The notes under the pieces are model-generated. The model had not been told where the DNA came from. It saw only the letters and a list, made by a program, of their open reading frames with translations, and searched no databases. Positions 4,883 through 7,170 of a stretch of 64,000 nucleotides of DNA are shown piece by piece (positions within the stretch are counted from its first letter, which is position 1; every line of letters begins with the position of its first letter). The translations under genes were made by a program, and so were the position numbers. Source of the DNA: Ferrimonas lipolytica (GTDB lineage: Bacteria; Pseudomonadota; Gammaproteobacteria; Enterobacterales; Shewanellaceae); NCBI RefSeq assembly GCF_012295575.1, contig NZ_CP051180.1:3100001-3164000 (forward strand), read 5' to 3'.

Positions 4883-5992
4883 TCACAGCGAACGCACGAG
4901 GGTAATCACCGCATCAACATCGTCATTATCGTTGTACCAATGAGGGGATAATCGCACCCCCAACGGCCGTTCATCGGCATGGATTTGAGCCGCTGGTAAC
5001 GCCGCAACCAAGTGCGAGTGCCCGCGGCCAAGATGCACCACTACGGTACCACTGCGTTGGCTCGGGACATGGGGCGACACGACCCTAGCGCCAAGTGCAT
5101 CAATCAGCTGCTGTTGCAGCTGAAGGTTATGCGCTCGGATCCGCGATATACCAATGGAGTTGAAGTATTCAATGCTGGCGGCAGCAATCACAAACGGCAG
5201 TACCGATGGCGTTCCTCCCCAAAACCGGAGCGCTTCATCGTGATAACGAAAGTTGTGGATATCAAACTCAAACGGGTTCTGATGAGAGAACCAGCCCACG
5301 TCCTTAGGTTGACACTGTGGCAACAACTGCGGCCTAATCCACATAAACCCAGCCCCTGTGCCAGCGCACAGCCATTTAAGGCAAGAGCCAAACATCAGAT
5401 CAACCCCTAAGGCGCTAACATCAATTGGAATCACCCCCGCGGTTTGCGCCACATCGATAGCGGTAAGGATCCCTTTGGCCTGAGCCATCGCCGTGACCTC
5501 AGCTAACGGTGCCTGCACTCCGGAATTGGAAAAACCGTGACTGATCCACACCAGCGCCAACTCATCGTCGAGATATTTACGCCACACCTGCGGATCGGCA
5601 ACATCCTCGCCCTTTGGGATAAAGCGGATCTGTGCAGTGCCCAATGGCAGCGCTTGCTGCAACGCAAAGCCAATGCTGGGGAAGTCACATTCGCTCAGCA
5701 ATACAGGCTTACCTGCTTGCAGTGCTGGTAACGCCATCGCCACCTTAACCAAGCCGCTGCTGACGTTACTTTGCGGGCAAAAGCCGGCAACATCAGCATT
5801 AAACAATGTCGCTAGCGCGCTCCGAAAGCGCTCAATCTGCCCCAACCATTCGCCCCAAGGGTCGCTATTATCACCACCCCATGGCTGCAAATAATGCTGT
5901 TGAATAGTCGCTGCCGTGCGCCGCAGCGGTCGCCCAGCAGAGTGGCTGCCAAAGTAGTAGCCGCAAGGTAATAGGAAGTCGTCTCGATTCAT
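4883..5992 (-). CDS. Kynureninase-like PLP enzyme (aminotransferase class V fold)
   Basis: 369 residues of the class-V aminotransferase/kynureninase fold. The region ISHGFSNSGVQAPL and the cofactor Asp in AIDVAQTAGVIPIDV precede the PLP-lysine motif FGSCLKWLCAGTGAGFMW, which resembles kynureninase (SYKYLNAGPG) more than cysteine desulfurase. The ATG overlaps the stop of the upstream PrnB-like heme protein by one base (TAATG), so the two are translationally coupled and probably act on the same tryptophan-derived molecule. No kynurenine formamidase or anthranilate gene is nearby. Class is confident, exact substrate inferred. Confidence 0.7.
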   Translation of the reverse strand: MNRDDFLLPCGYYFGSHSAGRPLRRTAATIQQHYLQPWGGDNSDPWGEWLGQIERFRSALATLFNADVAGFCPQSNVSSGLVKVAMALPALQAGKPVLLSECDFPSIGFALQQALPLGTAQIRFIPKGEDVADPQVWRKYLDDELALVWISHGFSNSGVQAPLAEVTAMAQAKGILTAIDVAQTAGVIPIDVSALGVDLMFGSCLKWLCAGTGAGFMWIRPQLLPQCQPKDVGWFSHQNPFEFDIHNFRYHDEALRFWGGTPSVLPFVIAAASIEYFNSIGISRIRAHNLQLQQQLIDALGARVVSPHVPSQRSGTVVVHLGRGHSHLVAALPAAQIHADERPLGVRLSPHWYNDNDDVDAVITLVRSL

Positions 5993-7170
5993 TAATCCTC
6001 CCCTAAAGTTCGACGAAGGAGTGACAATTCACGGTAACTGGTTACGATGTCATCGCGCTGATAGCCCGCCCGTCGGTCGCGTAGATCCGTTAGGGATTGC
6101 AACAGCCCAGCCAGCTGAGGTCCGCTGGCAGTCAGTTGCTGCAAATGCTGCTGCTCCATCTGTGCCGCTGGCTGCACTATGTAGCGCTGCACCAGCTGCT
6201 GGTGATGCTGATTGGCAATCTCGCCATGCAACTGACATAACTTTAAAAACGCCTGCAAGTGCTGTTGATACCACCGGCTGTGGTGCTGCTTAGGAGCAAC
6301 CTCTAAGAACTCGGTCATCAGGCTTTGCTGACGCATGCAGTCACGTAGAATGCGTTGCTCTTGCGGCATCATATAGAGGAATTTCTCTACCAGCATGCGG
6401 CCATAGGCTGGCTCATTGGCTTTGCACAGCCCTAACAGCATATCGATGACGTTGATACCGGCGAAGTCCCCAGCATTGGCACCGCGATAGACTTGGCTAC
6501 CTACATGGTGGGGCTTGTAATAGGGTCGAACCCCATAAAAAAAATCATCCGGGTCAAGCTGAGTAAACAGCGTGTCATTGCTGTGGTAAACCTCTTCTAA
6601 GGCATGCTTGGCGGCATCAAAGAGGTTAAGACTAATCGGGTGGGAGATCCCCAACGACAACACTTTCAACAAGGCTTCGGCAGCGCGCTTAAACGCTAAA
6701 ATACCCTTGCTGTTGTAATCAATAAAACACTGCTCGGCAGCAAGATTAGTGAAGCGTTTGTAGTGACCATTAACGGCGCGATTATGGGTACAAAGATGGG
6801 CTGTTGCGAAACGAGGCACCACCCCAATAGAGGCGGCGATATGCATTGCAAGTGCTGAGGCTTCCGCCTGTGGCGATGTACGATCGTTATCGGGGTCGGA
6901 AAGCCCGTGGCGTCGACACGCCGCCAAATAGAGGCCGACGTTGCCGAGCAGATCAAACGCTTGCTCAAAGCCTTCATCGGTATTACCTTGCGCCAACAGT
7001 AACTTGGTGTGCTCACAACCAACGGCTTCCAGCTGTGCTTTAACCTCATCCCCGACACCAACCACATTAGCGCGGTCCTGCTGCTGCCGGTAACGCCGTT
7101 CAAGCTCGCTGTTTAATTCAATAAAATCTGTGCGGATCCAATCATCAAACGCTGCAACTGTATCGTTCAT
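5992..7170 (-). CDS. PrnB/DUF1864-like heme protein (indoleamine/tryptophan dioxygenase superfamily)
   Basis: A 392-residue soluble, mostly helical protein. From memory it fits the DUF1864 family of PrnB, the heme enzyme that rearranges chlorotryptophan during pyrrolnitrin synthesis and that shares the indoleamine 2,3-dioxygenase fold. Recognisable stretches are VYRGANAGDFAGINVIDMLL and, in the C-terminal third, His-rich CQLHGEIANQHHQQLVQRYI, where the proximal heme His would be expected. A GGAG site precedes the ATG at 7170. It is coupled to a kynureninase-like gene, suggesting the pair opens and then cleaves tryptophan or an indole derivative. No halogenase or other pyrrolnitrin gene is present, so pyrrolnitrin synthesis is unlikely. 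Confidence 0.55.
   Translation of the reverse strand: MNDTVAAFDDWIRTDFIELNSELERRYRQQQDRANVVGVGDEVKAQLEAVGCEHTKLLLAQGNTDEGFEQAFDLLGNVGLYLAACRRHGLSDPDNDRTSPQAEASALAMHIAASIGVVPRFATAHLCTHNRAVNGHYKRFTNLAAEQCFIDYNSKGILAFKRAAEALLKVLSLGISHPISLNLFDAAKHALEEVYHSNDTLFTQLDPDDFFYGVRPYYKPHHVGSQVYRGANAGDFAGINVIDMLLGLCKANEPAYGRMLVEKFLYMMPQEQRILRDCMRQQSLMTEFLEVAPKQHHSRWYQQHLQAFLKLCQLHGEIANQHHQQLVQRYIVQPAAQMEQQHLQQLTASGPQLAGLLQSLTDLRDRRAGYQRDDIVTSYRELSLLRRTLGED

Follow-up and report, generated by a model that had tools for sequence, protein, structure and literature searches.

The closest described relatives of the two-gene locus discussed here are, on one side, enzymes of the heme-dependent aromatic oxygenase superfamily and, on the other, kynureninases. 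The former include SO4414 of Shewanella oneidensis (PDB 2NWB/1ZEE), IDO1 and TDO, the PrnB enzyme of pyrrolnitrin biosynthesis, and MarE, a 2-oxindole-forming heme enzyme of maremycin biosynthesis which, in the accessible text of PMC11904535, acts on beta-methyl-tryptophan. The solved structure of SO4414 says nothing about a pyridoxal phosphate (PLP) partner, and the literature searched on SO4414 and SO4413 of Shewanella, which left subscription papers outside, gave no function, only a structure table; in the part of PMC3184988 available to us, 2NWB is the heme-bound chain of the SO4414 pair in a holo/apo table. Within the same limits, the search returned no paper combining PrnB and kynureninase. 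The locus itself lies in Ferrimonas lipolytica (assembly GCF_012295575.1, contig NZ_CP051180.1, positions 3,100,001 to 3,164,000), and "the window" below means this whole stretch of 64,000 nucleotides. It consists of an oxygenase gene (protein 1) and a kynureninase-like gene (protein 2), arranged as follows:

5992-7170, minus strand: first gene of the pair, encoding protein 1, a relative of PrnB-like heme oxygenases, 392 amino acids
4883-5992, minus strand: second gene, encoding protein 2, a kynureninase-like class-V (fold type I) PLP enzyme, 369 amino acids
5990-5994, minus strand: TAATG, the stop of the first gene and the start of the second with one base in common (read from the sequence)
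5997-6003, minus strand: GGGGAGG just ahead of the second start and still inside the first gene's end, a candidate ribosome-binding site for the second gene (by eye)

The one-base overlap described in an initial annotation of this DNA is indeed present (TAATG, 5994-5990 on the minus strand), and the two genes are probably translationally coupled.

The pairing of these genes is not a matter of chance. A contig scan yielded 385 stretches encoding relatives of protein 1, and in the best 80, which were fetched and examined (the other 305 were not), protein 2 lies directly downstream of protein 1 without exception, although the partner is split into two open reading frames (ORFs) in L093 and its ORF starts late in L120. 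Six of the 80 (L090, L096, L104, L109, L117, and L119) encode both proteins in a single ORF of 766-779 residues, joined by no more than a short linker; all six come from metagenome-assembled genomes (MAGs) labelled SUP05, Pseudothioglobus, PS1 clade, or gammaproteobacteria, the ORF of L119 runs from a contig end, and together they look like one fusion lineage. The unfused genes are separated by no more than 25 bases or overlap in 72 of 74 loci, with an overlap in 24 (longest-ORF coordinates). Among 295 genomes sampled evenly from the order to which Ferrimonas belongs, the Pfam family of protein 1, PF08933 (PrnB/DUF1864), occurs in 17 genomes and protein 2 (counted at E up to 1e-40) in 22, with all 17 among the 22 (Fisher p 1.5e-23, a value that ignores relatedness). 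Adding four PF08933 genomes from wider samples brings the total to 21, G385 having been set aside beforehand because its PF08933 match is below the cut-off and its 53-position fragment contains two stops; protein 2 is present in all 21, adjacent in 19 and elsewhere in the genome in G090 and G619. The recurrence that the initial annotation proposed to count is thus far beyond chance, both in the loci (80/80) and in the order genomes (17/17). Two of the more distant plasmid matches to protein 2 (Sulfitobacter and Caballeronia, about 30% identity) have unrelated contexts and were set aside.

The partner of protein 2 is not always PrnB-like. Five genomes of the order sample have protein 2 and no PF08933 gene (G262, G271, G272, G282, and G292), and all five carry a TDO-family gene, which is adjacent upstream of protein 2 in four and unlinked in G282. 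The replacing proteins are 244-265 residues long; all five aligned, and likewise those of Novosphingobium RL4, Rhizobium, and Alloyangia, read SLKGR where TDO has GTGGS. The replacing proteins keep a QxVHQ segment and R111 which by eye align with the indole-binding His and the carboxylate Arg of TDO and MarE. A Novosphingobium RL4 plasmid has an SLKGR TDO-family gene and protein 2 arranged alike. The clearest case concerns two genomes of one genus, G090 and G282, whose protein 2 genes are 78% identical and occupy the same syntenic place, with neighboring DNA 70-80% identical: G090 has a PrnB-like gene and no gene of the TDO family PF03301, and G282, which lies outside the set of PF08933 genomes, has an SLKGR TDO. 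In the protein 2 tree G090 falls within the SLKGR group with strong support; G271 falls outside it at a poorly supported fork. PF03301 is absent from all 21 PF08933 genomes; within the order it occurs in 0 of 17 PF08933 genomes and in 54 of the 278 others (p 0.049), these 54 including the five SLKGR genomes. We conclude that the PLP enzyme was kept and its PrnB-like oxygenase replaced non-orthologously by one of the TDO family, with at least one switch well supported by the tree. The strongest evidence for a shared, TDO-like product of the two different oxygenases is that they serve a single PLP enzyme.

The SLKGR proteins resemble MarE in being short and in their loop, which in MarE reads SLGGR. 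A structural model of one SLKGR protein (pLDDT 76.8) has MarE as its best fold match (Z 19.5, 208 aligned, root mean square deviation (rmsd) 3.2), tied with XcTDO (Z 18.6, 199 aligned, rmsd 2.7). MarE differs in serving antibiotic biosynthesis, and we know of no PLP partner for it.

Protein 1 matches PF08933 at 576.2 bits (cut-off 27) over profile positions 3-387 of 387, so that the DUF1864 search suggested by the initial annotation gave a hit far above threshold and the assignment to the tryptophan/indole heme dioxygenase superfamily is upheld, as a relative of PrnB and weakly of IDO. The next family, IDO (PF01231), scores 23.9 bits, just below its cut-off of 26. The nearest solved relative is SO4414 (E 2.8e-159), which belongs to the same subfamily, with 533 bits over protein 1 residues 6-389 and a full profile match; by family profile it is followed by PrnB and then weakly by human IDO1 (E 0.017). 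In that weak alignment the F210-F211-x3-R215 and His322/323 segments of protein 1 correspond to the FF-x3-R and C-terminal His segments of IDO1, which we take to hold the substrate-carboxylate Arg and the heme-ligand His, so that protein 1 has a His and an Arg at IDO-like positions, as in the IDO branch of the superfamily. F210, F211, R215, and H322 are invariant in 97 of 97 distinct relatives of protein 1 and H323 is conserved in 96, L083 having Gln at position 323; by analogy with 2NWB, the heme form of SO4414, protein 1 presumably carries heme, with H322 or H323 as the candidate iron ligand. The pair's oxygenases differ from IDO and TDO in the GTGGS loop, at about the place of which all 106 PrnB-like rows (97 distinct) read TASGP (347-351) and none has GTGG; the replacing proteins, as described above, have SLKGR. 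A canonical TDO is excluded, as protein 1 has no PF03301 match up to E 1 and its own genome none at E 0.001; a pyrrolnitrin-type PrnB enzyme was also rejected, since similarity to solved PrnB amounts to only 36.7 and 34.5 bits despite membership of the same Pfam family. In the genome collection, protein 1 is most similar to four sequences of 75-80% identity, three from Ferrimonas and one from a genome labelled Marinobacter nauticus DP3N21-5 (L042), which at 77% identity lies inside the Ferrimonas range and may be mislabelled. DUF1864 also appears in a table of domain distribution among corals, possibly as a eukaryotic or symbiont-derived member (accessible part of PMC6214176).

Protein 2 is a class-V, fold-type-I PLP enzyme (Aminotran_5, 127.2 bits), presumably loaded with PLP. 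The initial annotation called it kynureninase-like, and in respect of nearest relatives it is: four kynureninase chains rank first among solved structures when its family profile is used, 1QZ9 (P. fluorescens), 3E9K (human), and 7S3V (an evolved human variant) scoring 106, 86, and 91 bits; and an AlphaFold2 model (pLDDT 95.7) is nearest in fold to 1QZ9 (Z 41.2, rmsd 2.5, 361 aligned), 3E9K and 7S3V following at Z 40.2 and 40.8, with cystine lyase and the cysteine desulfurases trailing in Z by only about 1.5-2.5. The likeness does not extend to kynureninase proper. Protein 2 scores 64.5 bits against a cut-off of 246.4 with the NCBIfam kynureninase model TIGR01814 and 21.3 against 27 with KYNU_C; as a single sequence it even scores higher with SufS (97.7 bits, cut-off 475.1) than with kynureninase, both far under their cut-offs, and a cysteine desulfurase was rejected on these scores together with that of IscS (34.0, cut-off 643.2). 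Alignment to 1QZ9 identifies K206 as the PLP lysine and places D180, Q183, L205, and R347 at aligned positions. K206 and D180 are present in 102 of 102 distinct relatives, and Lys227, Asp201, Arg375 (presumably the substrate-carboxylate Arg), and the GWF-H segment of 1QZ9 are kept in protein 2. The kynureninase residues His204 and Tyr226 (P. fluorescens numbering), which we assume to be active-site residues, are replaced throughout the family: Gln stands at the place of His204 in 102 of 102, and Val (94), Leu (4), or Ile (4) at that of Tyr226. On these grounds we do not regard protein 2 as a kynureninase equivalog.

The two replaced residues and the loop of the neighboring oxygenase vary together in the loci compared, the TDO loci having been picked from among TDO matches to cover the types and not at random. 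Twelve loci with a GTGG[ST] TDO were fetched, and seven of them (L164-L167, L169, L170, and L181) contain a kynureninase-type gene within the stretch, which in all seven keeps the His and the Tyr-Lys; L173-L177 have no such gene within the fetched stretch. The PLP enzyme beside PrnB-like or SLKGR proteins has Gln and Val/Leu/Ile-Lys, and that beside two short TDOs with GTKGT (L168 and Micromonospora L184) has Gln and Met/Ser-Lys. In these two loci (L168:2627-7392 and L184:5956-9151, the latter on Micromonospora zamorensis plasmid NZ_CP107937.1) the class-V PLP enzyme directly follows the GTKGT protein, which represents a third type of short TDO-family protein, and is itself followed by a flavin adenine dinucleotide (FAD) mono-oxygenase (by eye) in L168 and by a hypothetical protein and a major facilitator superfamily transporter in L184; the GTKGT loci are possibly natural-product clusters.

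We think it somewhat probable, going by the sequences, that the pair catalyzes consecutive steps and forms a direct two-step module whose substrate is an amino acid of the tryptophan type. Protein 2 would act directly on the oxygenase product, with no formamidase step between; an external aldimine would form between its PLP and the alpha-amino group of that product, and the side chain would be split from the aromatic part, releasing either alanine or pyruvate plus ammonia. The tryptophan-type substrate, the order of the steps, and the products are presumed. Given that GTGGS is missing from both types of oxygenase and the kynureninase His/Tyr pair from the PLP enzyme, the intermediate is probably something other than kynurenine. 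As far as the accessible texts go, loop swaps in these heme enzymes alter the outcome of the reaction (PMC12312684; PMC11904535), and IDO itself has mono-oxygenase activity (PMC12921851); from these sources we infer that the oxygenases of the pair may not yield N-formylkynurenine cleanly and that their product would pass straight to protein 2. For protein 2, either cleavage of N-formylkynurenine or beta-elimination from an oxindole would be possible. A more specific version, which we consider possible yet doubtful, is a tryptophan degradation that bypasses kynurenine, in which two non-orthologous oxygenases lacking GTGGS would lead to the same mono-oxygenated product (for example 2-oxindolyl-alanine) and beta-elimination by the PLP enzyme, no longer bound to kynureninase's His/Tyr, would yield oxindole, pyruvate, and ammonia; the module would be used by Shewanella, Ferrimonas, and Pseudoalteromonas, and in fused form by SUP05-type marine bacteria. 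The tryptophan-type substrate of the short two-enzyme pathway that the initial annotation proposed fits the families, and does so better given the TDO-family replacement; as far as that proposal implies a true kynureninase, the data do not support it.

Several observations weigh against a direct module: i) MarE, with SLGGR, favors dioxygenation without ascorbate (accessible part of PMC12312684), so that the loop by itself cannot decide between mono- and dioxygenation; ii) the SLKGR protein is nearer TDO than MarE by sequence (75 versus 25 bits), the fold comparison ends in the tie described above, the alignment of the protein 1 profile with IDO1 is weak (E 0.017), and loop residue equivalences are approximate; iii) the lack of PF03301 in genomes with PF08933 has weak statistical significance (p 0.049); iv) some oxygenase genes of both types lack a close partner nearby, as two SLKGR-TDO genes on Rhizobium plasmids have an Lrp gene and no protein 2 within 8 kb, the SLKGR locus of an Alloyangia plasmid has only a more distant class-V enzyme 3.3 kb off, and the one class-V gene downstream of the PrnB-like gene in Novosphingobium KACC 22771 is a distant one, 5.6 kb away; v) a PF04199 formamidase gene is present in 3 of the 21 PF08933 genomes, and the lack of a formamidase nearby is not diagnostic, since none was recognized by eye in the few kb covered of 6 of 7 ordinary GTGG[ST]-TDO loci with a kynureninase-type gene; and vi) the literature searched gave no substrate, product, or activity for any member of the pair. 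Because ordinary TDO loci behave alike in this respect, we give formamidase absence little weight as an argument for direct coupling.

The pair might instead belong to an ordinary kynurenine pathway, in which N-formylkynurenine would be deformylated by a formamidase encoded elsewhere, or hydrolyze spontaneously, and a divergent kynureninase would release anthranilate and alanine. The nearest profile matches and fold of protein 2 are indeed kynureninases, with the GWF-H segment and an Arg equivalent to R375 of 1QZ9 retained; TDO-family genes are what replaces the PrnB-like oxygenase; PF04199 occurs in 3 of 21 genomes; and in most of the 80 loci an adjoining gene is of the Lrp/AsnC type, which controls the kynurenine pathway of P. 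aeruginosa according to the title of a reference in PMC4938989. We nevertheless consider this pathway unlikely: protein 2 reaches 64.5 bits where the kynureninase model demands 246.4, the equivalents of His204 and Tyr226 are replaced in 102 of 102 relatives and kept in 7 of 7 GTGG[ST]-TDO loci that have a kynureninase-type gene, 18 of the 21 genomes have no PF04199 formamidase (other formamidase families were not searched), and the fusion suggests that no enzyme is required between the two steps.

A second possibility is that the pair acts on an aromatic amino acid other than tryptophan, for instance a modified amino acid or a compound derived from tyrosine; the superfamily is broad enough to include TyrH and SfmD (accessible part of PMC11791213). 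We regard such a substrate as improbable, since two tryptophan enzymes, PrnB and weakly IDO1, come next after SO4414 among the solved relatives, and since the proteins that replace the oxygenase are related to TDO and by eye keep QxVHQ and R111. A biosynthetic route in which a ring rearrangement of the PrnB type gives an aminophenylpyrrole and a PLP step then tailors it would suit the Pfam family name and the full-length PF08933 match, and yet appears very improbable in view of the weak similarity to real PrnB (36.7 bits), the conservation around the 80 loci of only the pair and often an Lrp gene with no larger cluster, and the presence of the pair, fused, in SUP05-type MAGs. We regard the direct two-step module as the best reading. 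If it is right, the pair would add a role in cell physiology to an oxygenase superfamily that is familiar chiefly from natural-product biosynthesis and the kynurenine pathway. SO4414, which has a solved structure and no function in the literature searched, gains a concrete hypothesis from its partner, the fusion, and the oxygenase swap, and the two oxygenase types provide a natural comparison set for what decides between mono- and dioxygenation. We would caution against naming such genes tryptophan dioxygenase and kynureninase on similarity alone.

The only other frequent companion of the pair is an Lrp/AsnC-like gene, found within the fetched stretch in 61 of the 80 loci and divergent within 225 bp in 59; the next family occurs in 26 of 80, and a wider conserved operon was sought in the 80 loci and not found. 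Lrp/AsnC-like genes also lie beside SLKGR-TDO genes in L147, L148, and L172 (by eye for these three), L182, L183, and L186; in L182 and L186, both on Rhizobium plasmids, the SLKGR gene has the Lrp/AsnC gene divergent to it and is followed by an M23 peptidase gene. No ORF of the window matched any of three Lrp queries, and the Ferrimonas loci L041, L043, and L044 have no adjacent Lrp/AsnC-like gene. A family scan of the four genes flanking the pair in the window identified a FAD_binding_2 protein, LysE, a PLD-like protein, and DUF6515, of which the PLD-like and LysE genes were discarded as parts of the module because no wider operon is conserved across the 80 loci. The statement that neither a formamidase nor a pyrrolnitrin gene is near agrees with these data, inasmuch as the four flanking genes scanned include no pyrrolnitrin gene (other prn genes were not searched genome-wide) and the genome itself has no PF04199 formamidase (a search confined to that family, as in the 18 of 21 PF08933 genomes that lack it). 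Among the seven GTGG[ST]-TDO loci with a kynureninase-type gene, a formamidase was recognized only in L170, where a KynB-like gene lies between (judged by eye on the N-terminal 60 residues of the ORFs in a few kb).

Two further observations concern the wider surroundings. In three loci of the window's family (L020:8288-10549, L021:8235-10367, and L023:1014-3131) a gene that by eye resembles OvoA is found within a few kb of the pair; it was not seen in the other loci of the order sample. Positions 590-2454 of the window, plus strand, encode a FAD_binding_2 protein with a twin-arginine translocation (TAT) signal and, after it, a small protein containing four CxxCH heme motifs.

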